Assembly: GCF_000381045.1 (NCBI RefSeq)
Contig: NZ_KB905729.1
Span: 1 to 64,000, forward strand
DNA length: 64,000 nt
Reading direction: 5' to 3'
From: Thermus scotoductus DSM 8553
GTDB lineage: Bacteria > Deinococcota > Deinococci > Deinococcales > Thermaceae
Shown: positions 9,924 through 63,680 of the stretch, piece after piece
Position numbering within the stretch: the first letter of the stretch is position 1
How the letters are laid out: the number at the start of each line of letters is the position of its first letter
Notes under the pieces: generated by a model
Databases searched by the model: none
Seen by the model: the letters and a program-made list of their open reading frames with translations, nothing else
What the model was told of the DNA's origin: nothing
Translations under genes and position numbers: made by a program

Positions 9924-9998
9924 GGGCGGCTAGCTCAGCGGAAGAGCGCTCGCCTCACACGCGAGAGGTCGTAGGTTCAAGTCCTACGCCGCCCACCA
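9924..9998 (+). tRNA. tRNA-Val(CAC)
   Basis: 75-nt cloverleaf including encoded CCA. Acceptor GGGCGGC / GCCGCCC, anticodon arm CTCGC-CTCACAC-GCGAG giving anticodon CAC (reads GTG), T arm GTAGG-TTCAAGT-CCTAC. It marks the border between ordinary chromosome and the integrated element, so its 3' half is the likely attachment site (attL); a second copy of that segment is not found in the window. Confidence 0.96.
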
Positions 9999-10012
9999 CG
10001 ATGGGAACGGAG

Positions 10013-10681: not shown

Positions 10682-11818
10682 CTATTCTTTCCCTTCCGGT
10701 TTGGGCAGGAGTTTCAGGGAGCGGAGGGTGGCTTTGAGGTCTTCCTGGGACACTCTGGCGTAGTGCTGGAGGGCGGTTTGGAGGCTTTTGTGGCCTGCGA
10801 GGGCGGCGGCGAGTTTGGGGTTTCCGGTTTGGCGGATGATGCGGGTGATGAAGGTGCCCCGGAGGTCGTGGAGGCGGGCTCTGGGCACGCCTGCTTTTTT
10901 GAGGATGTCCAGCCAGACCCGGCGGAGGTTTTCCGGGCGGATAGGGGTGCCGTTGAGGGAGGGGAAGACCAGGCCGTGGGGGTGGTAGAGGCCGTCTTCC
11001 CGCAGGTGTTCCCGGTGCTGGCGGAGGAGTTCCACGGCTTCCTGTGGGAGGGGGAGGGTGCGGTTGGAGCCGGAGGTTTTGGTGGGTCCCAGGACCACCT
11101 TACCGGTGAGGAGGTTGGGGACGAGGGCCTGGCGGATGTGGATTTCTCCCTTTTCCAGGTCCACATCGGGCCAGGTGAGGCCCAGGACCTCACCCCTTCT
11201 GAGGCCCAGGGCGGCCAGGAGGTAGAAGGCGGGGAAGAGGCGGTGCCCTCGGGCGACTTCCAGGATGCGGGCCAGTTCCTCCTCGGTGATTTCCCTGCCG
11301 GTTTCCCGGCTGGGGAGTTTGGGTAGCTGGGCCAGGTCCACGGGGTTGTGGGTGGTTCTGCCGTAGCGCACGGCCCGCTCATACGCCCCGTGGAGGAAGT
11401 TGCGCACGTGGGTGATGACGCTTCGGGAATACCCCCGGCCTGCCAGGTGGCGGAAGAAGGCTTCCAGGGTTTCCGGGGTGATACGGTCCAGGGTGGGGTT
11501 GCCGAGGTGTTCCTGGACGAGGGCGATGTAGCGGGTGTAGTGGTAGAGGGTGTTGTGGCGGCGGCCTTCGGTGCGGAGGGCTTCGGTGTGGGCTTCCAGC
11601 CAGTCCAGGAGGGGTGGGGGTGAGCCTTCCAGGGGTGTGAGGCCGTAGGCGAGGGCGAGTTTACGGCGGAGGAGGTCGGCCCGTTTGTCGTTTTCCCGGG
11701 TTTTGGGGCCTTTGAGGTAGAGGCTTTTGCGCACCCCGGCCACGGTGATGCGGATTTCGTAGGCCCGGAGGTCCTTGCGGTAGCGGACAGAGCCTTCGCC
11801 TTTGGGACGGCGGGGCAT
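10682..11818 (-). CDS. int: Tyrosine recombinase (integrase) of the element
   Basis: 378 aa. N-terminal AP2-like arm-binding region (SVRYRKDLRAYEIRITVAGVRKS), SAM-like core-binding domain (about 70-160), catalytic domain from about 175. Catalytic residues visible: R207 in LGLRRGEVLGL, K247 (TKTSG), H317 and R320 in HDLRGTF, H343 in AGHKS, Y353 in HYARV. All six are present, so it should be active for integration and excision at tRNA-Val. It is the second gene of a leftward operon with the repressor; two bases separate the repressor stop and the integrase ATG. Integration would thus be controlled with lysogeny-type repression. Confidence 0.95.
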   Translation of the reverse strand: MPRRPKGEGSVRYRKDLRAYEIRITVAGVRKSLYLKGPKTRENDKRADLLRRKLALAYGLTPLEGSPPPLLDWLEAHTEALRTEGRRHNTLYHYTRYIALVQEHLGNPTLDRITPETLEAFFRHLAGRGYSRSVITHVRNFLHGAYERAVRYGRTTHNPVDLAQLPKLPSRETGREITEEELARILEVARGHRLFPAFYLLAALGLRRGEVLGLTWPDVDLEKGEIHIRQALVPNLLTGKVVLGPTKTSGSNRTLPLPQEAVELLRQHREHLREDGLYHPHGLVFPSLNGTPIRPENLRRVWLDILKKAGVPRARLHDLRGTFITRIIRQTGNPKLAAALAGHKSLQTALQHYARVSQEDLKATLRSLKLLPKPEGKE

Positions 11819-12673: not shown

Positions 12674-13126
12674 ATGGTAGGGGAGCGGTTGTGGCGTTTA
12701 CGGGAGCGGCTGGGCATCAGCCGTGGGGATTTAGCGAGGGCGGTTGGGTTGGACGAAACCACGGTCTGGCGGTTGGAGCGTGGGGAGAGGAGGGGGTCCA
12801 TTGAGGTGGTGGTGCGTTTAGCGAGGTTTTTAGCGGAAGCTCTTGGGGAGGATTTCAAGGAGGTTCTGGCCTATCTGTTGGGTGAGCCGTCCAGGGTGGA
12901 GGGATGGAGGGAGCCCGTGGGGCCTGTTCGTTATCTGACGGTGAAGGAGGCCGCCAGGTTTCTGGGTATCCCCATTTGGCAGGTGAAGCAGGCGGTGCGG
13001 TCCGGTTTGATGCGGTCCCGGTCCCGGCCAGGGCCACGGGGGGCCATCATGATTTCCATTCAGGAGGTGGAGCGGTACGCCCGGGAGGTTTTGGACAGGG
13101 ACGAGCACGAGGTGGTTTATGGGTAA
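12674..13126 (+). CDS. Two-domain DNA-binding regulator (XRE plus excisionase-like HTH)
   Basis: 150 aa from the ATG at 12674, chosen because it lies one base after the predicted transcription start. Residues 1-60 are an XRE/Cro-type HTH (LWRLRERLGISRGDLARAVGLDETTVWRLERGE). Residues about 90-140 are a MerR/Xis-like HTH_17 segment (LTVKEAARFLGIPIWQVKQAVRSGLM). Head-to-head with the CI-like repressor, it fits the role of Cro-like antagonist and/or excision factor. It overlaps the next gene by 8 bases. Confidence 0.85.
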   Translation: MVGERLWRLRERLGISRGDLARAVGLDETTVWRLERGERRGSIEVVVRLARFLAEALGEDFKEVLAYLLGEPSRVEGWREPVGPVRYLTVKEAARFLGIPIWQVKQAVRSGLMRSRSRPGPRGAIMISIQEVERYAREVLDRDEHEVVYG

Positions 13127-14717
13127 GACTCGTGTGGAGAAGGCCCTGGATATTCTTCAGCAGGAGATTGTTCTTTGGCGGGCGGAGGGTACCGGGGAGG
13201 TTTTTGCGGATTTGCCCGGGATGCGGTTTTATCCCGTGGGGGACCCCAGGTTTTACCAGTGGGGGTTGAGGCTGGTTTGGGAGCGTTCGGGGGATGGCAC
13301 GGTTCTCCGCCGGGATGAGTGGCAGACGGTGGTGGACAATCTGAGGGCACGGGTTTCTGACACGGCGTTCCCGGTTTTTGTGCGGGTAGGGGGTGTGCCC
13401 GGGGCCGTCTTCTGGGACCTTGGGGAAGGCTTGCCGGTGGTGCGCATCACCGGGAACGGGTGGGATTTGGTGGATAAGCCTGAGGCACTCCCCGTGCGCT
13501 TCAGGCGTTCGGCGTACATGCACCCTCTGCCTGTGCCCGATTCGGATGCGAAGCCGGAGGACGTTTTTCTCATACGGGAGCTTCTGAACCTTTCGGGAGA
13601 AGAAGAGGAGAAAGTCAAGGAGTCCCTGCTTCTCCTGGTGGGTTGGCTCCTGGGGACGCTCAATCCGTTTGGGTCCTATCCCGTGCTCCTACTTAAAGGG
13701 GAAAAGGGGTCGGGGAAAACCACGGCGGCCAGGATTCTCAAGGGGCTGGTTGACCCCCACCAGGTTCTCTCCATGGCCCCCTCCAGGGATATGAAGGACC
13801 TCATGGTGGCTGCCTACTGGTCGCACCTGGTGGTTATGGACAATGTTTCGGTGTTTTCCCAGGAGTTTGCCGATGCGCTGTGCCGCATGGCAACAGGGGA
13901 GGCCCTTTATCTCCGAAAGCTTTACACCGACTATTCGGAGGAGGTTGTGGTCTACCGCCGTCCCCTGGTCATAACCTCCGTGGTGGACCCCATGACCCAA
14001 CCTGACCTCATTGACCGGGCTCTTTCCGTGGAACTCTACCGGGTGCCCGATACAGACCGCAAACCGGAGGAGGACCTTTATGCCCGCCTGACCGAGTTGC
14101 GCCCCAGGATTATGGGGGCCTTGGCCCACCTGGTTTCCCATGCCCTGAAGGAAACAACGGAACCCCAGTTTCTCCCCAGAATGGCGGATTTCGCCAGGTT
14201 TGTCTGGCGGGGGTTGAAGGCCCTGAACCTGGGGGATGCTTTCCTGAGCGCTTACGAGAAATCCCGGGGCATGATGGAACTCAGCGCGGTCTTTGACGAT
14301 GTTGCCATGTCGGTTCTGGTGGCGTACATCCAGGAAAAGGGGTCTTTCAGCGGCACTGCCCAGGAACTCTTGACGGAACTGGAGGGCTTCGCCGGGTATA
14401 CCAGGCAGAAACCCCGGGGGTGGCCGGGTTCCCCCGTAGCCCTTGGACACCGTTTGGCCCGGTTCAAGGCCTCCATGGCCGCTCTTGGAATAACGGTGAA
14501 CTACCACCGCACCCGGGACGGAAACATCTGGACCCTCGGTTTGGGTCACGGGCAAAGCCCGTACCTTGAAGGGTTTGACCGGACTGATTCCCATTCAAAT
14601 CCGCAAGCAGGGGGGGTTGCTTTGCCCTACGGGCAAACACATTTGCGTGAGCAAGATGATGAGGCGGTTATCCTTCTCCCAAGGGAGAAGGGGCAGTTAA
14701 GGGCGGGGTTGGTGTGA
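13119..14717 (+). CDS. D5/SF3-like ATPase, probable replication protein of the element
   Basis: 532 aa. A P-loop lies at about 194-202 (GEKGSGKTT), Walker B-like HLVVMDNVS at about 232, and a sensor/arginine-finger segment RRPLVITSVVDPMTQPDLIDRAL near 285. This layout matches phage and plasmid DUF927/D5-type helicases used in replication initiation; no primase catalytic motif is obvious in the N-terminal 180 residues. The C-terminal about 57 residues (from 476) look unlike the rest: they contain copies of two palindromic in-frame insertions (GHGQSPYLEG, then GQTHLREQ) plus a third palindrome. Second gene of the rightward early operon. Function inferred. Confidence 0.72.
   Translation: MGKTRVEKALDILQQEIVLWRAEGTGEVFADLPGMRFYPVGDPRFYQWGLRLVWERSGDGTVLRRDEWQTVVDNLRARVSDTAFPVFVRVGGVPGAVFWDLGEGLPVVRITGNGWDLVDKPEALPVRFRRSAYMHPLPVPDSDAKPEDVFLIRELLNLSGEEEEKVKESLLLLVGWLLGTLNPFGSYPVLLLKGEKGSGKTTAARILKGLVDPHQVLSMAPSRDMKDLMVAAYWSHLVVMDNVSVFSQEFADALCRMATGEALYLRKLYTDYSEEVVVYRRPLVITSVVDPMTQPDLIDRALSVELYRVPDTDRKPEEDLYARLTELRPRIMGALAHLVSHALKETTEPQFLPRMADFARFVWRGLKALNLGDAFLSAYEKSRGMMELSAVFDDVAMSVLVAYIQEKGSFSGTAQELLTELEGFAGYTRQKPRGWPGSPVALGHRLARFKASMAALGITVNYHRTRDGNIWTLGLGHGQSPYLEGFDRTDSHSNPQAGGVALPYGQTHLREQDDEAVILLPREKGQLRAGLV
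14544..14573 (+). repeat. Palindromic in-frame element, family A, copy 1
   Basis: Core ACGGGCAAAGCCCGT (6-bp arms, AAA loop) with conserved flanks GGTC and ACCTTGAAGGG. Read in frame as GHGQSPYLEG near the C-terminus of the ATPase. Confidence 0.85.
14616..14655 (+). repeat. Palindromic in-frame element, family B, copy 1
   Basis: TTTGCCC-TAC-GGGCAAA palindrome inside an outer TTGC...GCAA pair; right flank CACATTTGCGTGAGCAAG. Read as VALP-Y-GQTHLREQ. A longer-loop copy is at 41868-41925. Confidence 0.75.
14676..14693 (+). repeat. Third palindrome in the same C-terminal tail
   Basis: CTTCTCCCAAGGGAGAAG, an 18-base perfect palindrome lying inside the coding region just before the stop of the ATPase gene. 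It could be a transcription attenuator or another inserted unit. Confidence 0.55.
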
Positions 14718-30562: not shown

Positions 30563-31346
30563 TCCCCTGGTCAGCACCGGGTAAGAAGAGGACATAGAGG
30601 GTTGTGCCACGGTCCACCTTCACCGTGCGGATGACCGCCGTCTGGTCTTGGGGAAGGGCCACAAGGTTTGCGGCCCGTGCCAGAAGGAAAAGTTCCAGCG
30701 AAGGAACCGTCTTCTGAACCGCCTGTCCCCCACCGGGCAGAGGCACCACGGTGGTGGCCTCCAGGGTGGCCTTGACAAAATCCGAGATGCCCCCCAAAGA
30801 CCCCCGAACCAAATCGGCCAGCAGGGTGGGAGCCTCTTCCCCTACCCTGGCCGGTAGTCCATGGGTGGCCTCGGTAGCTTCCAGGGCCACGGCGTTGACG
30901 CTGAACACCTGCTTTTCCTTGACCATGGTGTCCAGGTCAATCCAAACCCGCCCCGTGGGGTCAAACCTGGCCCTGCCCACCAGCACGGCCCCGTCCTCCA
31001 ACTCCACAGCCACCGGGACGGTTTTCCCGGGAACAAGATAAACCCCGGTGAGGAGCTTGCCCTTCATTAAAGTCCCCGGCAGGGGGTGTTTCCCTGACGG
31101 GAAAGCAGCCTGGGCCGGAACAGGAGAAGGAAATGAGGGCATACCGGGCAGAGAAGGCAACCCTGGGGTGGGCAGTGGGGCTGAAGACGGTGGAGGGGGC
31201 GCAGGCTGGGATTCCGCAGGCTTGCTCTCCCTGGGCGCTTGGTACAGCACCCAGGGGTCCTCAAGGTACGGGCTTTGCCCGTGACGAACAGACTGGGCCA
31301 AAACGGCCCCCATCAACAACAACCCCCAGGTCAAAGCCCGCATCAC
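30528..31346 (-). CDS. VirB10/TrbI-like C-terminal domain with its own signal peptide
   Basis: 272 aa. Signal peptide MMRALTWGLLLMGAVLAQS, then HGQSPYLEDPW at 22-32 from a family A palindromic insertion, a proline-rich linker (45-90), then the VirB10 beta-barrel core from about 90: LPGTLMKGKLLTGVYLVPGKTVPVAVEL, RVWIDLDTM and a C-terminal strand-helix-strand region. In normal VirB10 this part is joined to a cytoplasmic/TM segment; here that part is the separate upstream gene, overlapped by 4 bases. See finding on the split VirB10. Confidence 0.72.
   Translation of the reverse strand: MMRALTWGLLLMGAVLAQSVRHGQSPYLEDPWVLYQAPRESKPAESQPAPPPPSSAPLPTPGLPSLPGMPSFPSPVPAQAAFPSGKHPLPGTLMKGKLLTGVYLVPGKTVPVAVELEDGAVLVGRARFDPTGRVWIDLDTMVKEKQVFSVNAVALEATEATHGLPARVGEEAPTLLADLVRGSLGGISDFVKATLEATTVVPLPGGGQAVQKTVPSLELFLLARAANLVALPQDQTAVIRTVKVDRGTTLYVLFLPGADQGNGLQTPASPGR
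31261..31285 (-). repeat. Palindromic in-frame element, family A, copy 2
   Basis: Minus-strand copy of the ACGGGCAAAGCCCGT core with flanks TC and ACCTTGA, read as HGQSPYLE directly after the signal peptide of the VirB10 C-terminal protein. Orientation and reading frame agree with the other copies. Confidence 0.85.
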
Positions 31347-45076: not shown

Positions 45077-46174
45077 ATGTTCAGAGAAAACGTGGAGGCC
45101 CTCTACACTTGCCTTCTGGGCAACATCCCGGTCATCCTCTGGGGACCGCCAGGGGTTGGCAAAACCGCCACTGTGTCTTATCTAGCCAAGACCTTGGGGT
45201 GGCACCTGGAAGTGGTCATTGGGGCCACCCGGGACCGCACCGATTTCGGAGGGTTCCCGGTGGCCCGGGACGGAAGCGTGGACCTCGTTCCCATGCCCTG
45301 GGTGAAGCGCCTGATAGAGGCAGGAGAGAGGAGCATCTTATTCTTGGATGAACTCTCTTCCGTCCCGGAGGACGTGAGGCCCGCCTTGTTACGGGTCATC
45401 AACGAACGGTGCGCCGGGGACGTCTACCTCCCCGGCAGAATCGTGGCCGCCGCTAACCCCGGAAATGTTGCAGTGGGGGGCCTGGACCTGGAACCCCCCA
45501 TCGCTAACCGCCTCCTGCACCTGGAATGGACCCTGGAACCCAAGGAATGGGCCTTGGGCATGAGGGAAGGCTTTGACACCCTCTACCCACCCCTCCCTGA
45601 CCCCAAACCCTTCGCCCATGAGGTGGAATGGGCCAGGGAAATGGTGGCCCTGTACGTGGAGAGGAACCCTCTCCATGCTTACATGGCCCCCAAGGGCGAA
45701 GAGGCTGGGAAAGCCTGGCCCAGCTACCGCACCTGGGATATGGCCGCCCGTGCCCTCGGCGTGGCCCGCGCCCTGGGCTTCAAGGAAAACATCCAGGCCA
45801 CCCTGGTAGTGGGAGCCGTGGGGAAGGTGGGGTACTCCTTCATGGCCTTCCTGCAAGAACTGGACCTCCCAGACCCCAGGGAGGTCATGAAAAACCCCAG
45901 CCTCCTGCCCTCCCGGGACGACCGCACCTACGCCACCCTCATGGCCGTGGCCTCCACCACAGCAGGGGAGTGGAACGCTGAAGCCTGGAGAGCGGCCTGG
46001 CGGGTTATCGGCTACGCCGCCGAAATGGGTAAGGCAGACCTAGCCGTACCCGCCGCTGGAAGACTTCTCCGGGCTCTGGCCCAGGCAAGGGAAGAACGAA
46101 AGCCCTCCTTCCCCGTGCCCAAAGAAGCAGAACGGTTCCTGCCGCTACTGAACAAGGTGGCAGAGATGCGGTAG
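45077..46174 (+). CDS. MoxR-type AAA ATPase
   Basis: 365 aa. Walker A WGPPGVGKTATV at about 22-33, Walker B SILFLDELSSV at about 87-97, sensor GRIVAAANPGNVAVGG near 125, and ANRLLHLEW arginine-finger region. MoxR ATPases pair with VWA proteins to insert metals or remodel target complexes; the next gene codes for such a partner. GAAAGGAGGCAAC precedes the ATG. The cargo cannot be told from sequence. Confidence 0.88.
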   Translation: MFRENVEALYTCLLGNIPVILWGPPGVGKTATVSYLAKTLGWHLEVVIGATRDRTDFGGFPVARDGSVDLVPMPWVKRLIEAGERSILFLDELSSVPEDVRPALLRVINERCAGDVYLPGRIVAAANPGNVAVGGLDLEPPIANRLLHLEWTLEPKEWALGMREGFDTLYPPLPDPKPFAHEVEWAREMVALYVERNPLHAYMAPKGEEAGKAWPSYRTWDMAARALGVARALGFKENIQATLVVGAVGKVGYSFMAFLQELDLPDPREVMKNPSLLPSRDDRTYATLMAVASTTAGEWNAEAWRAAWRVIGYAAEMGKADLAVPAAGRLLRALAQAREERKPSFPVPKEAERFLPLLNKVAEMR

Positions 46175-46188
46175 ACCGGGAGGTAGCC

Positions 46189-47334
46189 ATGACCCAAAAC
46201 GAACGCATCCGGGCCGCCAGGACCGCCCTGGTGGCCCGTTTCCCCTACCTCTACCCCGTGGCCTACCTGCTGTCCCTGGTGGAAAGCGAAAAGCTACCCA
46301 CCATGGCCGTGGATAAGCGGGGAAAACTGTACTACAACCCCCGCTTCGTGGACGCCCTCACCGATACCCAACTGGTGGGGTTGCTGTGGCACGAGGTCCA
46401 CCACATCCTGCGGGAACACGTGGGACCCAGGGGGGAAGAACTCAAGAAACACCCCCTGGGCAACATCGCCCTGGACCTGGAAATCAACGACGACGCTGAA
46501 GAAGCCGGGGTTGACCTGCCCCGGCCTCCTCACCCTTACGGCGGCTACTTCCCCCAAGACCTGGGCCTGCCCCAGGGACTCCTGGCCGAGGAATACCTGG
46601 AACTCCTGAAGGACCAGCCCCCACCTAAGGAACAGGGAAGCATGGACCAACACGGTCCTGGACCCTGGGAAGAGGAAGAAGGCGGAGAAGAAGGGGTGAA
46701 CGAAGGCACCCTGGAGGTGGCCCGCAGGGCCGTGGCCCAGAAGGCTAAAGAGTACGAGGCCAAGGGCAGGGGAACCCTACCCAGCGGTATGCGCCGCTGG
46801 GTGGACCAAATCCTCAACCCCCAGGTGGACTGGCGAAGCGTCCTCCGGCGCATGGTCAAGGGAACCATCGCCCACCACCTGGGCAAAAAACGCCCCACCT
46901 ACACCAAACCTAACCGCCGGGGACACGCCTACCACCCGGTAATCATGCCCGGCTACTACGGCCTAAAACCGAAAGTAGCCATAGTGGTGGATACCTCCGG
47001 GTCCATGGGCAAAGAAGAACTCGCCCAGGCCCTGGGGGAAATCCAGGGCATCCTCCGCCAGGTTAGGGAAGTCACGGTCATCTCCACCGACGCCGCCGCA
47101 CATACCGCACAAAAAGTCTTCCGCCCGGAACAAATCACCCTCATGGGCGGCGGCGGCACCGACATCACCCAGGGCATCAAAAAGGCCGAGGAACTCAGGG
47201 CCGATATCGCCATCGTCATCACTGACGGCGATACCCCATGGCCCACCAAACCCCCCAAAATAACCACCCTCGCCATCATCATCGGCAACCACCAACCACC
47301 CCCACCCTTCATCCCCCACATCACCATCCCCTAA
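46189..47334 (+). CDS. VWA-domain protein with HExxH metallopeptidase-like motif
   Basis: 381 aa. Residues about 55-80 hold LWHEVHHILREHVG, a HEXXH zinc motif, as in DUF2201-type putative metallopeptidases; an acidic middle (EEEEGGEEG) follows; the C-terminal VWA domain has MIDAS motif VVDTSGSMGKEE at about 266-277, GGGGTD at about 322 and VITDGD at about 344. This is the partner of the MoxR ATPase (15 bases apart). The last residues are proline-rich (NHQPPPPFIPH). A proteolytic or metal-linked remodelling module is likely. Confidence 0.85.
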   Translation: MTQNERIRAARTALVARFPYLYPVAYLLSLVESEKLPTMAVDKRGKLYYNPRFVDALTDTQLVGLLWHEVHHILREHVGPRGEELKKHPLGNIALDLEINDDAEEAGVDLPRPPHPYGGYFPQDLGLPQGLLAEEYLELLKDQPPPKEQGSMDQHGPGPWEEEEGGEEGVNEGTLEVARRAVAQKAKEYEAKGRGTLPSGMRRWVDQILNPQVDWRSVLRRMVKGTIAHHLGKKRPTYTKPNRRGHAYHPVIMPGYYGLKPKVAIVVDTSGSMGKEELAQALGEIQGILRQVREVTVISTDAAAHTAQKVFRPEQITLMGGGGTDITQGIKKAEELRADIAIVITDGDTPWPTKPPKITTLAIIIGNHQPPPPFIPHITIP

Positions 47335-47376
47335 AAACCCACATCCCAACAACACCTGTGGCAGTTCGTCCTTCCG

Positions 47377-47560
47377 TGGAACCACTTTACACACCTGTGT
47401 AAGTTTGCCCGTGCCCTCCAGGACGGCATTTGTGATAGTTGACCCCCCGTGTGGAACTATGCTGACAACATACTTCCACACTTTTTATGCCGTCCTGGAC
47501 GGCATCTGTGATAGATGGGGGTTCATAGAGGGGGAAACTTTACCCTTTTGTAGTTGAGTG
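47377..47560 (+). repeat. 184-bp inverted repeat, left arm
   Basis: Near-identical to the reverse complement of 50824-51007, with 80-100% identity in the central 130 bp. Contains GTGTGGAA ... TTCCACAC and 17-19-base palindromes around GCCGTCC(T/A)GGACGGC. Flanks the helicase segment. Confidence 0.85.
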
Positions 47561-47974
47561 CATCACTGTCAACACAGAAGTCCTTCACAAGGCCAAAGTG
47601 GGCTACCGGTAGGCTTTTCTGCACCACCGGTAGCCCCATAACACTGAGTACCATGATATCAAGAGGGGGGAAAGTTTTCACAAACCCCCCTCTTCGTACC
47701 CCCTACCCCTGGTTCCATCTATCACAGATGCCTTAAGAAAGGCACTTTGGTGCACTTTGTGTACCAAAAATGCCTTGTGTGCACGCCTGGTGCCTTTGGG
47801 GCACCGGTGGTGCACCTACTGCACCACCGGTGCCAGGGGTAAACCAGGTTCTTTCAGGAGCCTTCTGAAGAAGCAAAGAGAGAGGGGCAACACTTTCCCC
47901 CTCTCTCCAATCCACCCTTTACGGTTCTCAGGTTAGCAGGTAAGGGGCGGTTTGTCAACTGATGTAGGCAAAAA
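47561..47974. other. Hairpin-rich non-coding region
   Basis: No convincing gene. Several long stems: GGGCTACCGGT / ACCGGTAGCCC (47600-47636), AAGAGGGGGG / CCCCCCTCTT (47661-47694), a 15-bp stem GGCACCGGTGGTGCA / TGCACCACCGGTGCC (47800-47834) and AGAGAGGGG / CCCCTCTCT (47879-47906). CTATCACAGATGCC (47718) repeats part of the inverted repeat. Possible origin, RNA genes or recombination site. Confidence 0.7.
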
Positions 47975-47996
47975 CGGTGGGGCGTAAGCCCCACCG
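47975..47996 (+). promoter_or_regulatory. Hairpin-plus-Shine-Dalgarno cassette 4
   Basis: CGGTGGGGC / GCCCCACCG with GTAA loop; then GTCTGAGTGGTGAAGGAGG and the ATG at 48022, 25 bases after the stem. Confidence 0.7.
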
Positions 47997-48021
47997 GTCT
48001 GAGTGGTGAAGGAGGTGAGTG

Positions 48022-48267
48022 ATGAAGAACGGCAAGAAGGCAAAGGAGCGGGAGCAGTACAGGGTTTTCACCACCCGTGAGTACACGGAGGGTGAGGAGG
48101 AGCGGACCTTCTGGGTCCGCATCGGCACGGCGTTCAAGGGGGAGAAGAGCATCCAGGTTCTCCTGGACGCTCTGCCTCTGAGCGGGAAGCTGGTCATCCT
48201 CCTGGAAAACGGGGAGGATGAGGACGACCAGGAGGCGGAACTCACCCTGCCCAAGCGCCGTAGGTAG
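48022..48267 (+). CDS. Hypothetical small protein
   Basis: 81 aa; GAAGGAGGTGA precedes the ATG. Basic N-terminus (MKNGKKAKEREQY), central beta-rich part YRVFTTREYTEGEEERTFWVRIGTAFKG and IQVLLDALPLSGKLVILL, acidic segment and basic end PKRRR. It resembles small DNA-helper proteins in size only; no family recognised. First gene after the left inverted repeat, just upstream of the helicase. Confidence 0.62.
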   Translation: MKNGKKAKEREQYRVFTTREYTEGEEERTFWVRIGTAFKGEKSIQVLLDALPLSGKLVILLENGEDEDDQEAELTLPKRRR

Positions 48268-48274
48268 TCAGTAG

Positions 48275-48302
48275 GGGCACCCCGGGTAAACCCGGGGTGC
48301 CC
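48275..48302 (+). terminator. Hairpin before the helicase gene
   Basis: GGGCACCCCGGG / CCCGGGGTGCCC with TAAA loop, 12-bp stem, 22 bases before the ATG at 48325. Member of the same intercistronic hairpin class, without the GTCTGA box. Confidence 0.68.
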
Positions 48303-48324
48303 GCATTTGCCCAGGGGGATAACC

Positions 48325-50223
48325 ATGCTAAACCCTGAACAGCTTGCGGTGGTAAACCACACCTGGGGGCCTGCCCTGGTTATCGCAGGTCCCGGTAGTG
48401 GGAAGACCCGTACCGTGGTTCACCGGACTGCCAGGCTTATTCAGGAGGGCATCAACCCGGAGGAGATTGCCCTCGTGACCTTCACCCGCAAGGCGGCGGG
48501 GGAGATGCGGGAGAGGCTTGCCCGCCTGGTGGGGGAGGAAGAGGCCACCAGGGTCTGGGTTTCCACCTTTCACTCCCTGGCGGCTTCCGTGCTCAGGGAC
48601 GCCTACGGCAACAACCTGAAAATCCTGGATGCCGAAGCCGCCAAGAAGGTTATCGCCCAGTTCCTGGAGGAGGAAGGGGCTCCCCACAAGTTAACCCCCA
48701 AGGCGGTCCAGGGAGCCATCTCCCGGGCTAAAAACGCCGGGTGGGACCGGTCTACCCTTTCCTCCCAGTACGCTGATATGGAACCTTACCTGACCCTGGT
48801 CTACGACCGGTACGAGGAGTTTAAGCGGGAAAAGGGCTACCTGGACTTTGACGACCTCCTGGGGACCGCTGTGGACCTGCTGGGACACGATGCGGAAATC
48901 CGCCAGGTCTGGTCCAGCCGAACCCGCTTCCTCACCGTGGACGAGTACCAGGACACCAACCTCCAGCAGTTCCGTCTTCTCCGCCTCCTCCTCGGCCCGG
49001 AAGAGAACATCGTGGCCGTGGGGGACCCCAACCAGGCCATCTACTCCTGGCGGGGAGCGGACTACCGCCTCATCCTGGAGTTCAAACGCCACTTCCCCCA
49101 CGCCCGGGTGTACAAGCTGTCCACCAACTACCGGTCGCACCGGGGCATCACCGAGGCGGCTTTGAGCATCATCCGCAACAACCGCTACCGGGAAGACCTG
49201 CCGCTTCAGGCACTCAGGGACGGCGAACTGCCCCTCAAGGTGACTGCCGAAACCCGGGAGGGAGAGGCCCTCTTTGTGGCCGAGGCCGCAAAGCTGGCCC
49301 TGGAAAGCGGGGTGCCGCCCGAGGAAATCGCAATCCTCATGCGCTCACTGTCCCACTCCCGTTCCATAGAGGCGGCGCTTCGCCAGTACCGCATCCCCTA
49401 CACCGTGGTGGGCGGGGTGGGGTTCTGGGCCAGGCGTGAGGTGAAACTGGTCCTCTCGTTGCTTCAGGCTTCTTACGGGGACCAGTTGGCCCTGACGGAG
49501 GTTGTGGCCCAGACGGTACCGGGGTTCGGCCCCAAGAAGGCGGCTAAGGCGGCGGCGGACCCGGTGCTTCTCAAGAAGGTGCCCGAGGGGGCGAAGCTTC
49601 TGGAAGTCCTTACCTCCGCCCAGGAGCTTCACGGCCACCACGGGTTCGCCCTGGCAAATGCCTTCGCTTCCTGGCTTTCCGAGTGGCGGGAAGACTTCTT
49701 CCTGCCCATCCTCCTTGACCTGGCCGAGGGGGTTCGGGAAGCGGCAGAAGACCGCTGGGCCAACCTGGAAGAGGTAGCCAATGCCCTTAGGGGATTTGCC
49801 GAACGCACCCCTAAGGGGGACCTGGCACTCTTCCTCCAGGATGTTTTCCTGAGTCTTGAAGACCCCGAGGAAAAGGAAGAGGGGGTCAAAATCATGACCC
49901 TCCACGCCTCCAAGGGCCTGGAGTTCCATACGGTCTTTCTGGTGGGGCTAACCGAAGGCTTCTTCCCCTCGTGGCAATCCACCAAAAAACAGGACTCCCT
50001 GGAGGAGGAACGCCGTCTCTTCTATGTGGGCATCACCAGAGCTAAGGAAACCCTCTACCTCACCACCTACCAAATGGGCGAAAGAGGCCCCATCCAACCC
50101 AGCCGCTTCCTGAACGAAGTCCTCGGCCAACACCTCCACTACAACCCCGCCATCGGCTACCACGGCAAAGATACCACCCAGGCCGCTAACTCCCTCGCTA
50201 AAATCGCCTCCTTTGACTGGTAA
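48325..50223 (+). CDS. UvrD/PcrA-type superfamily 1 helicase
   Basis: 632 aa from ATG 48325 (CAGGGGG upstream). Motifs: Q motif LNPEQLAVV, Walker A AGPGSGKTRTVV at about 20, Ia FTRKAAGEM, II VDEYQDTN at about 206, III GDPNQAIYSWRGAD, IV YRSH, V TLHASKGLEF at about 525, VI VGITRAKE. Translocates 3'-5' on single-stranded DNA in repair, replication or transfer. Somewhat shorter than UvrD (about 720). Flanked by the 184-bp inverted repeats. The 3' end switches to C-rich codon use. Confidence 0.93.
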   Translation: MLNPEQLAVVNHTWGPALVIAGPGSGKTRTVVHRTARLIQEGINPEEIALVTFTRKAAGEMRERLARLVGEEEATRVWVSTFHSLAASVLRDAYGNNLKILDAEAAKKVIAQFLEEEGAPHKLTPKAVQGAISRAKNAGWDRSTLSSQYADMEPYLTLVYDRYEEFKREKGYLDFDDLLGTAVDLLGHDAEIRQVWSSRTRFLTVDEYQDTNLQQFRLLRLLLGPEENIVAVGDPNQAIYSWRGADYRLILEFKRHFPHARVYKLSTNYRSHRGITEAALSIIRNNRYREDLPLQALRDGELPLKVTAETREGEALFVAEAAKLALESGVPPEEIAILMRSLSHSRSIEAALRQYRIPYTVVGGVGFWARREVKLVLSLLQASYGDQLALTEVVAQTVPGFGPKKAAKAAADPVLLKKVPEGAKLLEVLTSAQELHGHHGFALANAFASWLSEWREDFFLPILLDLAEGVREAAEDRWANLEEVANALRGFAERTPKGDLALFLQDVFLSLEDPEEKEEGVKIMTLHASKGLEFHTVFLVGLTEGFFPSWQSTKKQDSLEEERRLFYVGITRAKETLYLTTYQMGERGPIQPSRFLNEVLGQHLHYNPAIGYHGKDTTQAANSLAKIASFDW

Positions 50224-50225
50224 AA

Positions 50226-50249
50226 CGGGCGGGGCCTAGGCCCCGCCCG
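50226..50249 (+). promoter_or_regulatory. Intercistronic palindrome after the helicase
   Basis: Perfect palindrome with arms CGGGCGGGGCCT / AGGCCCCGCCCG. It lies 37 bases before the ATG at 50287, with GGTCCAG after it, similar to the other cassettes. Confidence 0.65.
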
Positions 50250-50286
50250 GTCCAGTCAGGTGAGCGTACATCCACGGAGGTGGTGG

Positions 50287-50517
50287 ATGAACCTGAAGCC
50301 ATTTGTTCCCGAGCGGTACGAGAAGATTGTGGTTTCGGTGGTTTTTGAGAACGAGGAGGAACGGGCGACCCTGGCGTCCGATGCCGGGTCGCTTAAGGAT
50401 GCGCTGAGGTTCCTCCAGCGGGGGTTGGACAGAGGAGCTGTGTTGGCGGAAATCGTCTGGGTGCTGGAGGAAGCGGAGGACTATCGGGTGGAAAAGCGGG
50501 TGGTGATTTTCCCCTAG
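50287..50517 (+). CDS. Hypothetical small protein
   Basis: 76 aa; CACGGAGGTGGTGG leads to the ATG. Sequence NLKPFVPERYEKIVVSVVFENEEERATLASDAGSLKDALRFLQRGL shows two charged helices and a beta strand; ends VVIFP. Not recognised. Followed within 8 bases by the next small gene. Confidence 0.58.
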   Translation: MNLKPFVPERYEKIVVSVVFENEEERATLASDAGSLKDALRFLQRGLDRGAVLAEIVWVLEEAEDYRVEKRVVIFP

Positions 50518-50525
50518 GAGGTTCC

Positions 50526-50816
50526 ATGACTGTAGCCAGAATGCACCAGGTCGCCACAACAGACCCCGTGGTGGTGGTTCGCCACCACCACGGTAGGGTG
50601 GATACCATCGGCGGAGAGGCTGTCTTTGTAGATGAGGAAAGGCTTCTCATGAAAGGAGCCGTCCTGTACGAGCTTCACTACGATGACTACACCGACATCT
50701 ACGATAAACTCTACCCGGCTATCCTCGCCCTCTGGTACGCCCACCAGTCCGGCTACAACGCCTACCTCCTCGCCCTCAACCGAGAAGGCGAAGCGGTAGA
50801 CCGGATTGAACTTTAG
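50526..50816 (+). CDS. Hypothetical small protein
   Basis: 96 aa; CTAGGAGGTTCC before the ATG. Contains VVVRHHHGRVDTIGGEAVFVDEERLLMKGAVLYELHYDDYTDIYDKLYPAILALWYAHQSGY. Histidine/tyrosine-rich alpha/beta mini-domain. No family recognised. Ends 7 bases before the right inverted repeat; its 3' half is C/A-rich like other gene ends in this block. Confidence 0.6.
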   Translation: MTVARMHQVATTDPVVVVRHHHGRVDTIGGEAVFVDEERLLMKGAVLYELHYDDYTDIYDKLYPAILALWYAHQSGYNAYLLALNREGEAVDRIEL

Positions 50817-50823
50817 CGCACCC

Positions 50824-51007
50824 CACTCAACTACAAAATGGTAAAGTTTACCCCCCTCTAACCCCCCATCTATCACAGATGCCGTCCAGGACGGCATAAA
50901 AAGTGTGGAAGTATGTTGTCAGCATAGTTCCACACGGGGGGTCAACTATCACAAATGCCGTCCTGGACGGTGTAAAGCAACTTCCACAAGTACAAAGAAT
51001 GGTTCCA
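50824..51007 (-). repeat. 184-bp inverted repeat, right arm
   Basis: Reverse complement of 47377-47560 with only scattered changes in its central 130 bp and a more diverged outer 40 bp. Palindromic boxes GCCGTCCAGGACGGC at 50881 and GCCGTCCTGGACGG at 50957 are preceded by CTATCACA(G/A)AT. The remaining gap to 51086 holds a related CTACCACGAATGTTGTC at 51020 and no gene. Confidence 0.85.
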
Positions 51008-51086
51008 TAAGGAGGTCAACTACCACGAATGTTGTCAAGATAGCCCCTACGGGGCTGACCCAGAACGGGACAGATGGAGGTGTGAG

Positions 51087-51524
51087 ATGGCAAACGAGGT
51101 CTTTGAGCGGCTTGCGGCACCATTTCCGCCCGATGAGGTGGGGTGGAAGGTTCAGGCCACCAATCGGGACCGTACTCGGGGGTTGGTGGTGGCCTATGTG
51201 GATGCCCGTACTGTGCTGGACCGGTTGGACGAGGTGGTGGGTCCCGAGGGTTGGCAGGATGCTTACGAGGTGTTGGCCGACCGGGAAACGGATAAGGGCC
51301 GCATTGTGGAGGTGCGGTGCCGTCTTACCATCCTTGGCACAACCAAGGAGGACGTTGGGGAAGGCGATACCCTCAAGGCCGCTTTCTCGGATGCCCTGAA
51401 GAGGGCCGCCGTGAAGTTCGGGGTTGGGCGGTATCTTTACCGCCTGGAGAAGCTGTGGGTGCCTCTTAAGGACGGGCAGATAGAGGAGAAGACCCTGGCT
51501 AAGCTCAGGGAGCTTTTGACCTGA
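51087..51524 (+). CDS. Rad52/22-type single-strand annealing protein (DdrA-like)
   Basis: 145 aa. Rad52/22-family features: MANEVFERLAAPFPPDEVGWKVQ, VVAYVDARTVLDRLDEVVGPEGWQDAY, and GDTLKAAFSDALKRAAVKFGVGRYLY, the C-terminal signature of this fold. Such proteins form rings that bind and anneal single-stranded DNA; DdrA in Deinococcus protects DNA ends. It sits next to the right inverted repeat and near the helicase, sigma factor and RecB-like nuclease, forming a recombination gene set. ATG follows GGAGGTGTGAG. Confidence 0.88.
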   Translation: MANEVFERLAAPFPPDEVGWKVQATNRDRTRGLVVAYVDARTVLDRLDEVVGPEGWQDAYEVLADRETDKGRIVEVRCRLTILGTTKEDVGEGDTLKAAFSDALKRAAVKFGVGRYLYRLEKLWVPLKDGQIEEKTLAKLRELLT

Positions 51525-52171: not shown

Positions 52172-52180
52172 GAGGTGCAG

Positions 52181-53371
52181 ATGGTAAACCACATCTTAGC
52201 ACCGGAGCCCGTGTCTATCAGCCCAGACCTTGACCAGGAACTCATCCCGGAGCCAACGCCCGAAGATTTGCTTGCCATTGAGGAAGAACTTCCCCAGGGT
52301 GAAGGGGCTGACCCTGGTCACGGGCAAAGCCCGTATCCTGACTTTGTTCGCCTGTACCTGCACGAAATCGGCCAGGTTCCCCTTCTCACCCTGGAGGAAG
52401 AAGTGGAGCTTGCCCGTAAGGTGCGGGAGGGTAACGAGGCGCTGGAAAGGCTTTCCCAAGCTACGGGGTTGGACCGGGGTTTGATTCAAGAGGTGGTGCG
52501 GGCCAAGATTCTGGGCACGGCCCGCATTAGCCAGATCCTTGGCCTCAGGGACAAGCTGAATCCCAAGATGGTGGACGAGGTGGACGCCAAGCTGAAGAGT
52601 CTTCTCAAGGAGCTTAAGCGGTACCTTCACCTTGTCCGTGAAGGCGAGGCCGCCCGCCAGCACCTCATCGAGGCCAACCTGAGGCTGGTGGTGTCCATCG
52701 CCAAGAAGCACACGGGCCGGGGATTGGACCTCCTGGACCTTATCCAGGAGGGCAACCTGGGCCTTATACGGGCAGTAGACAGGTTTGATTACCGCAAGGG
52801 CTTCAAGTTTTCCACCTATGCCACCTGGTGGATTCGCCAGAGCATCAACCGGGCCATTTCGGAGAAAGCCCGCACCATTCGGCTTCCTGTGCACATGGTG
52901 GAAACCATCAACAGGCTTTTTCGTGTGATTAGGGACCTGGAGACGCAGTTGCATCGGGAGCCTACTCCTGAGGAGGTGGCCCGGGTTATGGGTGAAAACT
53001 GGGATGCCCGGCGGGTGGAGGAGGTGCTGAGCTACGCCCAGCACACCATTTCCCTGGAAATCCCCGTGGGGAATGATGAGGAGAACTTCTTTGGGGACTT
53101 CATCCCCGATGAGTCTTCCCCTTCCCCCATGGACAGGGCTTTCCAGTCCATTCTGAAGGCCGAGGTGGAGAAGGCGCTGGAGCACTTGACGGATAGGGAA
53201 GCCACGGTTATCCGCCTCCGCTACGGGTTAGCGGATGGGGTAATGCGCACCCTGGAGGAGGTTGGGGACATCCTCCACATATCCCGGGAACGGGTGCGCC
53301 AGTTGGAAAAGAAGGCACTCAGGAAACTGCGCTACGGTCGCTTCTCACGCAAACTTCAGGGGTGGAGGTAG
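52181..53371 (+). CDS. Element-encoded sigma-70 factor, SigA paralog
   Basis: 396 aa; TAGGAGGTGCAG precedes the ATG. Region 1.2 ([27 protein letters not shown]), the SigA-type non-conserved region ([21 protein letters not shown]), regions 2-3 ([16 protein letters not shown] ... [25 protein letters not shown] ... [16 protein letters not shown]) and region 4 ([15 protein letters not shown] ... [27 protein letters not shown]) are all present. It resembles Thermus SigA far more than a small phage sigma. A family A insertion (GHGQSPY) lies at 46-52, just before region 1.2. Probably redirects host RNA polymerase to element promoters. Confidence 0.9.
52316..52341 (+). repeat. Palindromic in-frame element, family A, copy 3
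   Basis: GGTC, core ACGGGCAAAGCCCGT, then ATCCTGA. Read as GHGQSPYPD in the N-terminal part of the sigma factor. Confidence 0.82.
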
Positions 53372-61019: not shown

Positions 61020-61526
61020 ATGGTAGCGGTGCTGGATCGTGATACGGAGAAGGTGTACAGGCAGGGTTTGGCCTATGCGGGGGCGGGTCTTTTGCTGAAG
61101 GGGAAGGTGCGGGAGGGTTTTGCTCTTATCCTGGCTTCTCAGGCCCTTTATTCCCGTCAGCTTTCCGAGGTGATGGGGAAGCTGGACGAGGGGGATATTG
61201 ACGAGGCCGTCTGGCTTGCTTTCGGCTACACCCATCACCCCACGCTGGAGAAGCGTCCCCCTTTACTGCCCCCTGAGGGAGGGTGGAAGCCCTTGTGGAG
61301 GCTTATGGCGAGGGAGAACCTTAACGGCAGGGAGGAGCCTGGGGCTACCCTGGTGGCCCTGGCCCACACTGCCCATCTGGGGGAGCTTACCGCCGTCCTG
61401 GTGACAGACGAGAGAAGGGGCTTTGCCAAGGCCCTGGAGGTGGCTAAGGCGATACTGGAGTACCGGCCCATGGCCTTCCGCTACGGGCTGCATCAGGTTT
61501 CCGGTGCGCTTCCCCAGACCAGGTGA
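61020..61526 (+). CDS. Hypothetical helical protein, paralog family P (member 3)
   Basis: 168 aa; GGGGGAGGTAATCTC before the ATG. Helical; MGKLDEGDIDEAVWLAFGYTHHPTLEKRPPLLPPEGGWKPLWRLMAREN aligns with LKKGRVGEAGVMALVLAHSPY ... REGWRELVPVVEA of 16907-17440 and with its neighbour 16441. The three genes lie 44 kb apart within the element. Function unknown; located beside the ClpA-type AAA gene here. Confidence 0.62.
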   Translation: MVAVLDRDTEKVYRQGLAYAGAGLLLKGKVREGFALILASQALYSRQLSEVMGKLDEGDIDEAVWLAFGYTHHPTLEKRPPLLPPEGGWKPLWRLMARENLNGREEPGATLVALAHTAHLGELTAVLVTDERRGFAKALEVAKAILEYRPMAFRYGLHQVSGALPQTR

Positions 61527-61563
61527 TGAAACCCATGCTAATCTCAACCTGACGGGGTGGCCT

Positions 61564-62922
61564 ATGCTGGCGAAGCAGAATCTCAGGCTGTCTGAGGTGC
61601 ATCTCATTCTTTCCCTTGCCCTTGTGGCGGCAACCTTGTTCGGCCTAACCGAAAAGGACCTCAAGCCCTTTTCCCCCTTAATGGCCCTTCTGGCCCTGGC
61701 CTACGGTCTGGCCTGGTCCTACCTTCGCTTTGGCCGCCCCCGGTTCTTCAAGACCGGGGCACGGGTGTTCGCCGCCATCGCCCTCGCCTTTTTCGCCCTG
61801 GCGGAAGCGGTCCTTCTCCTGAGCCTCTTCATGCGGTGGGACACCGTGGCCTTTGCCCTGGCCCTCGGTTTTCTCCCTCTTCTGGGTGCCCTCTGGACCA
61901 CCCTACAGGTTTCGCCTGTGAACCAGGTGCCCGGGCAGACGGCCCTTGCGGGTGAGCGGGTGGTTCCCGTTTCCCAAGGCCGGGTGCACCTGGGGAGGAG
62001 CGGAGTGTCCCTTGGTCACGGGCAAAGCCCGTACCTTGAAGGGGTAGACTTCGCCGAGCTTTCCCGGAAGCTTCGGGAGCGGGTCATCGGCCAGGAGGAG
62101 GCCGTGGATGCCCTTATCCGGGGGCTCAAGCGGAAGGCGGCAGGCTTTGGACGCAAGGGTAAGCCCTTTTCCGCCATGCTTCTGGGACCTACGGGAACCG
62201 GCAAGACCGAGCTGGCTAAGGCGCTGGCGGAGAGCCTGGGGCGTCCCCTGGTGCGCTACGACATGAACGCCTTCGGCCAGGAGCACACCGCCGCCCTGCT
62301 GGTGGGGTCTCCGCCGGGGTATGTGGGTTCCGACAAGCCCGGCAGGCTTTACGAGGACCTCCTTCGGGCACCCGAAGCGGTGGTTCTGTTTGACGAGATG
62401 GAGAAGGCCCACCCCTTTGTTCTGGACCCCCTTTTGCAACTTCTGGACGAGGGGCGCTTCCAGGAGCTTTCCCAGGGGCTGGTGGTGCAGGCTTCGGATG
62501 CGGTTCTCCTCTTCACCACCAACCTTCTCACGGAAGTGCCCGAGGGGGCGGACCTCCGGGGCCTTCTGGTGGCCCGGGGTTTGAGGCCGGAGTTCGTGAA
62601 CCGGGTGGATGAGGTGGTGGCCTTCCGTCCCTTTACCCGGGAGGTGCTTCTGGAGGTGGCGAGGCGGCATCTTCTGGGCTACCTGGAGGGGTGGAAGAGG
62701 GCGAGGGGTTTGGCTTTCCGCCTGGAAGTGGACGAGGCGGTGCTTCACCGCCTGGTGTCCCTGTGCGACCTGCGGTTTGGAGCCCGGGACCTGCAACGGG
62801 TGATAGAGGGTACCGTGGGGGATGCCCTGGCGGATGCTTATCTCCGCCGTGGGGGTAGGAAGTTTTCCCGTCTGAGGATTTACCTGGACGGGGACAACCT
62901 GGTGGCCGTTTTGGAAGACTGA
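61564..62922 (+). CDS. Membrane-anchored ClpA/ClpB-type AAA+ ATPase
   Basis: 452 aa from ATG 61564. Four hydrophobic helices in residues 10-120, linker 120-160 with a family A insertion (GHGQSPYLEG at 151-160), then the AAA+ D2-type domain: VIGQEEAVDAL, Walker A GPTGTGKTELAKAL at about 209, GQEHTAALLVGSPPGYVG, Walker B VVLFDEMEKAHP at about 273, LLTEV sensor region and a C-terminal small domain (LRFGARDLQRVIEG). Clp-like unfoldases lack a membrane anchor; here the motor faces the cytoplasm at the membrane. No peptidase-binding LGF loop noticed. Confidence 0.85.
   Translation: MLAKQNLRLSEVHLILSLALVAATLFGLTEKDLKPFSPLMALLALAYGLAWSYLRFGRPRFFKTGARVFAAIALAFFALAEAVLLLSLFMRWDTVAFALALGFLPLLGALWTTLQVSPVNQVPGQTALAGERVVPVSQGRVHLGRSGVSLGHGQSPYLEGVDFAELSRKLRERVIGQEEAVDALIRGLKRKAAGFGRKGKPFSAMLLGPTGTGKTELAKALAESLGRPLVRYDMNAFGQEHTAALLVGSPPGYVGSDKPGRLYEDLLRAPEAVVLFDEMEKAHPFVLDPLLQLLDEGRFQELSQGLVVQASDAVLLFTTNLLTEVPEGADLRGLLVARGLRPEFVNRVDEVVAFRPFTREVLLEVARRHLLGYLEGWKRARGLAFRLEVDEAVLHRLVSLCDLRFGARDLQRVIEGTVGDALADAYLRRGGRKFSRLRIYLDGDNLVAVLED
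62014..62043 (+). repeat. Palindromic in-frame element, family A, copy 4
   Basis: Same 30-base segment as 14544-14573 without a change (GGTC, core, ACCTTGAAGGG), read as GHGQSPYLEG between membrane and AAA domains. Confidence 0.87.
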
Positions 62923-63654: not shown

Positions 63655-63680
63655 ACAGCTTCCCCTTGAAGGGAAGCTGT
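63655..63680. promoter_or_regulatory. Hairpin in the divergent region
   Basis: ACAGCTTCCC / GGGAAGCTGT around a six-base loop, upstream of the leftward promoter. CCGCTATTGCGG occurs at 63694 and again at 63814. The 63640-63785 gap otherwise holds only promoters. Confidence 0.6.

Follow-up and report, generated by a model that had tools for sequence, protein, structure and literature searches.

Inverted iteron-like arrays around a helicase gene in an integrative conjugative element of Thermus

A locus in Thermus scotoductus DSM 8553 raises the question of why two nearly identical modules should face each other across a helicase gene. The window analysed here is a 64,000-nucleotide stretch of this genome, and a sequence-only reading of it had proposed that the two modules delimit an invertible segment, constitute a duplicated origin or partition site, or are regulatory regions kept similar by gene conversion. 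We find that the paired-array structure is real and conserved, and that the duplicated origin or partition site fits best of the three options, while the invertible segment is unsupported. On comparative grounds, the two repeats are probably a bipartite replication origin, or a copy-control pair, of the kind known from phage P4.

The inverted repeat and its host element

The locus lies on a 148-kb contig within a ~57-kb integrative element of the Thermus genome that is inserted in tRNA-Val, with attR, the other 49-bp copy, at contig positions 66879–66927 beyond the window. Three features of this element are needed below:

9953–10001, unstranded: attL in tRNA-Val, a 49-bp direct repeat of the 3' part of tRNA-Val
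10682–11818, − strand: tyrosine integrase
13119–14717, + strand: P-loop ATPase, candidate replicative or initiator helicase with a predicted winged-helix-like C-terminal domain

The element also encodes a CI/LexA-like repressor, an HTH protein, a PcrA/UvrD-like helicase, a Rad52-type protein, a phage-type (PDDEXK) exonuclease and components of a T4SS, of which the VirB4-like gene was recognised by Pfam (PF19044) and the VirD4-like and VirB11-like genes were named from sequence and synteny. With att sites in a tRNA gene, an integrase and T4SS ATPases all present, the host of the arrays is an integrative conjugative element. It was compared with three relatives, namely G008 (G8; collinear, on a complete contig), G001 (G1; on two contigs) and G011 from T. 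brockianus YIM 77927, while plasmid, phage and IMG/VR collections yielded no close relative of the locus.

Several further features of the element were recorded. A 26-bp palindromic repeat, GGTCACGGGCAAAGCCCGTACCTTGA, is dispersed within coding frames, where it encodes the peptide HGQSPYLE in several proteins; its sites are at 14544–14569, 31261–31286, 52316–52341 and 62014–62039 of the window and at about 760, 6479, 7940 and 7964 of locus L183 in G001. The window regions 61423–62922 and 52175–53371 encode a ClpX-like AAA+ protein, hydrophobic in stretches of its N-terminal part, and a sigma-70 family factor of the element's own, which had no counterpart in those stretches of G008 and G001 that were compared. 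A protein of ~540 aa at contig positions 63666–65423, whose start falls in the window, is conserved, apart from a variable middle part, across the four elements and has no Pfam, PHROGs or NCBIfam match.

The inverted repeat, the segment that it brackets and the next gene are arranged as follows, the two copies having been delimited by repeat search, direct comparison and local alignment:

47377–47560, + strand: inverted repeat copy 1
47561–48010, + strand: hairpin-rich non-coding DNA from copy 1 to the first gene (z −8.7 as single strand)
48022–48267, + strand: small ORF of about 81–82 aa, conserved in all four elements
48325–50223, + strand: UvrD/PcrA-like helicase (PF00580, 4.6e-73; TIGR01073, 445 bits, under the family cut-off)
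50287–50517, + strand: small ORF of 76 aa, outside the repeat pair in relatives
50526–50816, + strand: small ORF of 96 aa, outside the repeat pair in relatives
50824–51007, − strand: inverted repeat copy 2
51087–51524, + strand: Rad52/22 single-strand annealing protein (PF04098, 4.6e-21)

The repeat search returned an ungapped inverted repeat of 147 nt at 95% identity (47414–47560 and 50824–50970), and direct comparison revealed that the 105 bp at 47417–47521 are identical to their reverse-complement partner, with divergence increasing toward both ends. Local alignment matched 181 of 210 positions between 47349–47560 and 50824–51034, indicating that the true arms are a little longer than first given. 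The alignment score of the arms is 96 SD above shuffles, and an exact inverted repeat of 105 bp is far beyond chance. The repeat sequence occurs twice in the host genome, in just these two arms, and no match to it was present in the 26 other Thermus genomes searched. The equal-length, reverse-complementary arms of the sequence-only reading, near-identical centrally and more diverged at their ends, were thus recovered at the positions that it gave, as was the hairpin-rich stretch inside them; its count of four genes plus a UvrD helicase between the arms has to be corrected to the helicase and three small ORFs (82, 76 and 96 aa).

GC skew shifts abruptly along the co-directional genes of window positions 46000–51500, and in several of them (the VWA gene, the UvrD gene and the 96-aa ORF) third-position G falls and C rises toward the 3' end. 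Cumulative GC skew was rejected as an origin marker, as coding bias dominates it and renders it uninformative. At 47975–47996, 50229–50250 and 51036–51050 of the window, G+C-rich hairpins followed by a short conserved stretch lie just upstream of the ribosome-binding site, and leader hairpins of the same type, with the stretch GGCCGCCCCAGACCAAA, occur in T. brockianus (locus L003) at 2345, 3612, 6472, 8721, 9947, 11410 and 13060. Such hairpins precede many element genes, their sequence is element-specific, and they may represent a repeated leader or processing hairpin.

Cores, spacing and conservation of the arrays

Alignment of six copies from three elements (the window element, G001 and G008) revealed an iteron-like core, GTGAWRGWTG, common to all of them, and the notion that the array motifs are unrelated between elements was therefore rejected. 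The core reads GTGATAGATG or GTGATAGTTG in the window, GTGAAAGATG in G001 and GTGAAGGATG in G008. The cores of the window and the features around them are:

47432–47441, + strand: core GTGATAGTTG of copy 1
47449–47488, unstranded: AT-rich stretch between the two cores of copy 1 (mirrored at 50895–50934)
47488–47504, unstranded: 17-bp palindrome TGCCGTCCTGGACGGCA adjoining a core (others at 47412, 50880 and 50956)
47508–47517, + strand: core GTGATAGATG of copy 1, 76 bp from the GTGATAGTTG core
47552–47560, + strand: AGTTGAGTG box, inner limit of copy 1 (mirrored at 50824–50832)
47716–47725, − strand: extra lone core CATCTATCAC within the hairpin-rich region
50867–50876, − strand: core GTGATAGATG of copy 2
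50943–50952, − strand: core GTGATAGTTG of copy 2, 76 bp from the GTGATAGATG core
51017–51026, − strand: degenerate third core GTGGTAGTTG, 74 bp beyond the GTGATAGTTG core of copy 2

Neighbouring cores in the arrays are 74–76 bp apart. The core was counted 7 times in the window element versus 0.58 expected and 15 times in the G008 region versus 0.81 expected, and a search of 50 Thermaceae genomes for core pairs 73–77 bp apart gave 8 matches in 2 genomes, found only in these arrays; the reversed core pattern and a spacing shifted by 18 bp, used as controls across the same 50 genomes, each gave 0 matches. Between the two G008 copies, which are 80% identical over 289 bp, 1 of 65 core columns is mismatched versus 56 of 224 columns elsewhere (Fisher p = 2e-6), indicating that the cores are the part that is kept.

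Other elements of the copies recur as well. The palindromes at 47412 and 50956 are imperfect, and the GTCCTGGAC part of the palindrome is common to the window and G001, while AGTTGAGYG is found at the inner end of all six copies compared and forms the exact repeat limit in the window and G008. In each element, certain 40-mers from the copies rank among the most AT-rich (99.68–99.97 percentile), and the stretch at 47449–47488, at the 99.92 percentile of its element, is a candidate unwinding element. DnaA boxes were also considered; TTCCACA is present in the copies, yet matches to TTATCCACA are too poor for such a claim.

An inverted pair surrounds the helicase gene at the same place in two of the three relatives, the otherwise collinear G008 and G001, with one copy between the VWA gene and the 82-aa gene and the other directly after the helicase; window copy 2 sits two genes further on, and array positions vary between elements. 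In T. brockianus, the more distant relative, the pair is absent at the helicase locus, and 9-bp iterons, TTGCGGTGG, are grouped into three clusters. The first falls within the 3' end of the gene orthologous to that of the 13119–14717 ATPase, the second is made up of two ~105-bp direct repeats 177 bp apart, and about 1 kb further comes the third, an inverted single copy. In G001, a 53-bp piece of copy 2 recurs 149 bp apart (C13:1–201, locus L204, and the start of C4, locus L183); both contigs end there, and this may be a tandem duplication or an assembly artefact.

The best explanation for copies that are alike within an element and different from one element to the next is that they co-evolve with a single binding protein and also undergo gene conversion, which Rad52 and the exonuclease could supply. 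The earlier suggestion of regulatory regions kept similar by gene conversion was partly right, in that the copies track each other within each element.

Likeness to two-part origins and the proposed mechanism

In the P4 GenBank record, type 1 repeats (GGTGAACA) are annotated in ori1 and crr; the latter adjoins the gene of the alpha primase-helicase and comprises a pair of 120-bp direct repeats at a distance of 180 bp. The arrays described here resemble this system in having identical short iterons in two separate cis regions, in the partly opposed orientation of these iterons with AT-rich DNA within, and in an iteron spacing of ~75 bp. Same-strand iteron distances are 10/65/75/76/86 bp in P4 ori1, 10/64–65/74–75/85 bp in G008, 9/56/65/74–75/84 bp in T. 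brockianus and 74/76 bp in the window, so that the ~10-bp runs are shared by G008 and T. brockianus and not by the window. Under random placement of an equal number of sites over an equal span, pairs at 74–76 bp had p = 0.02 for the window, 0.002 for G008 and 0.023 for T. brockianus, values that are indicative only, as 75 bp was first seen in these data, with P4 as the independent reference and the only outside system against which the spacing was set. The 180 bp between the crr direct repeats compares with 177 bp in the T. brockianus array, and the hexamer GGTGAA, common to P4, G001 and G008 iterons, is suggestive; the window core TGTGATAG is less like GGTGAACA of P4 than the cores of its relatives are.

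The window also departs from P4. Here a PcrA-like helicase is enclosed by two near-identical modules in inverted orientation, 3.3 kb apart, and the gene for the candidate initiator (13119–14717), which has no primase part, lies about 33 kb from the arrays; a cis region beside the initiator gene was found only in T. brockianus. The C-terminal domain of this ATPase is predicted to be winged-helix-like (pLDDT 74, single-sequence model), the ATPase resembles P4 alpha only weakly (hhalign probability 3.5% for the whole protein and 23% for the C-terminal piece), and fold searches of the domain against PDB and viral collections gave no confident match. As these comparisons are weak or indecisive, the ATPase is a putative binding partner of the cores. 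Primases were recognised in two relatives only, as a PrimPol gene adjoining the helicase in T. brockianus (PF09250, 3.5e-31) and as an NrS-1-type primase region in G008 (PF22763, 1.4e-19), indicating that these elements carry replication modules; no primase was recognisable in the window element. In G008, the primase and helicase parts at C1:981074–983397 (L197 11074–13397) fall in two overlapping frames, as might result if a single fused primase-helicase gene had undergone a frameshift or been misread in sequencing. Taken together, the proposal that the arrays work like a P4-type bipartite origin is moderately supported, while their membership of the P4-type origins is not established, since the window arrays are not beside the initiator gene and homology of the initiator is unproven.

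Two iteron arrays flank a gene and serve initiation and copy control in oriR-repA-incA of P1 and ori2-repE-incC of F. There the flanked gene is that of the initiator, whereas in the window it encodes a UvrD/PcrA-like helicase, and a Pfam scan of the neighbouring genes found no RepA/RepE-type initiator gene beside the arrays. In SaPI and SCCmec, the Rep/Cch helicases are element-encoded and have a DNA-binding domain at the C terminus, and an iteron origin follows immediately after their gene (PMC7581432). The likeness of the iterons in the 3' end of the T. brockianus helicase gene to this system is one of layout, and the window arrays lie elsewhere. From Thermus itself, passages of the published accounts describe ICETh1 and ICETh2 of T. 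thermophilus HB27 as small elements of 11–15 kb at tRNA genes (PMC7693054, PMC5365140, PMC7767461), ICETh2 lying by tRNA-Val and carrying a primase-polymerase and a helicase, and ICETh1 being reported to work without a T4SS or relaxase (PMC7693054, PMC5365140). The ~57-kb element of the window differs from these small elements and shares with them integration at a tRNA gene; no description of paired arrays was found in those passages.

The arrays themselves, with their conservation, spacing, AT-rich composition and restriction to these elements, are observed; we infer a binding protein, replication, looping and gene conversion, and propose the following mechanism. An element-encoded initiator, most likely the replicative helicase at 13119–14717, with an accompanying primase in relatives, would bind the 10-bp GTGAWRGWTG cores 74–76 bp apart around the AT-rich stretch. 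Binding at both arrays, between which the PcrA-like helicase gene sits, would open the DNA, or the arrays would pair or loop for copy-number control, upon excision of the element for transfer. The Rad52-type annealing protein and exonuclease of the element would be the likely means of keeping the copies alike.

Other readings of the arrays

A rather unlikely alternative is that the arrays are operators at which a regulator of the element controls the helicase operon from copy 1 and a Rad52-recombination operon from copy 2. Each copy does lie upstream of an operon, the cores are partly dyads in G008, and several HTH proteins are encoded by the element. Against this, the G008 core is essentially confined to the two arrays, inverted modules of 150–290 bp before co-directional genes would be unexpected, the region yielded no promoter above chance, and a promoter-like sequence in G001 lies hundreds of bp downstream of copy 1. 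As the core is also absent from the divergent CI/HTH2 promoter region of the window element, operators for the CI repressor are disfavoured, although another regulator is possible. When CI, HTH2, XRE and membrane wHTH proteins were compared, the recognition helices of CI and HTH2 varied between elements, leaving both as possible readers of the core. XRE660 is disfavoured as reader of the core, its recognition helix being identical across elements with different cores, as is the membrane wHTH protein wHTH414, which is nearly identical between G0 and G1.

We regard as improbable the reading of the region as oriT, in which a relaxosome would recognise the hairpin-rich DNA and repeats and the PcrA-like helicase would unwind the nicked strand. 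PcrA-type helicases serve relaxase-initiated rolling-circle replication in ICEBs1, and with this precedent, the T4SS genes and the hairpin-rich DNA (z −8.7), a transfer origin is conceivable here. However, the scanned subset of element proteins contained no recognisable relaxase, and the hairpin-rich region lacks conservation in G008, while in G001 its structure is weak (z −2.2).

Inversion of the segment by recombination between the arms is very unlikely. Although homologous recombination could act on 105 bp of perfect inverted identity and the element has Rad52 and the PDDEXK exonuclease, the segment genes have one orientation in all four elements, including G011, which is without the pair at this locus. 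The sequence-only reading rightly saw no adjacent invertase gene; in the Pfam scan and ORF list the only integrase is the att recombinase of the element, about 36 kb away. The host assembly contains no alternative junction, and the opposite orientation proposed by that reading was absent from the assemblies of host and relatives alike; inversion is thus disfavoured, and conservation of the copies as iteron arrays is not something that it needs. There is little reason to favour centromere-like partition sites of the excised circle, for which clustered, element-specific repeats would be suitable, as Pfam detected no ParA or ParB in the subset of element proteins to which it was applied and the architecture fits origin iterons better. 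We also give scant credence to a variant in which both modules would be active origins and recombination between the arms, aided by the annealing protein and exonuclease, would turn a fork and amplify the excised circle, as in the yeast 2-micron plasmid, here in a bacterial conjugative element.

Little is understood of how integrative elements replicate in a plasmid-like manner in Thermus. If the P4-like bipartite origin proposed here is correct, a family of large T4SS elements in this genus would have in these arrays a concrete candidate for its origin, and the range of P4-type two-part origins would widen to include conjugative elements from an early-branching phylum. The co-varying arrays also offer a natural series for studying the joint evolution of two distant cis sites.
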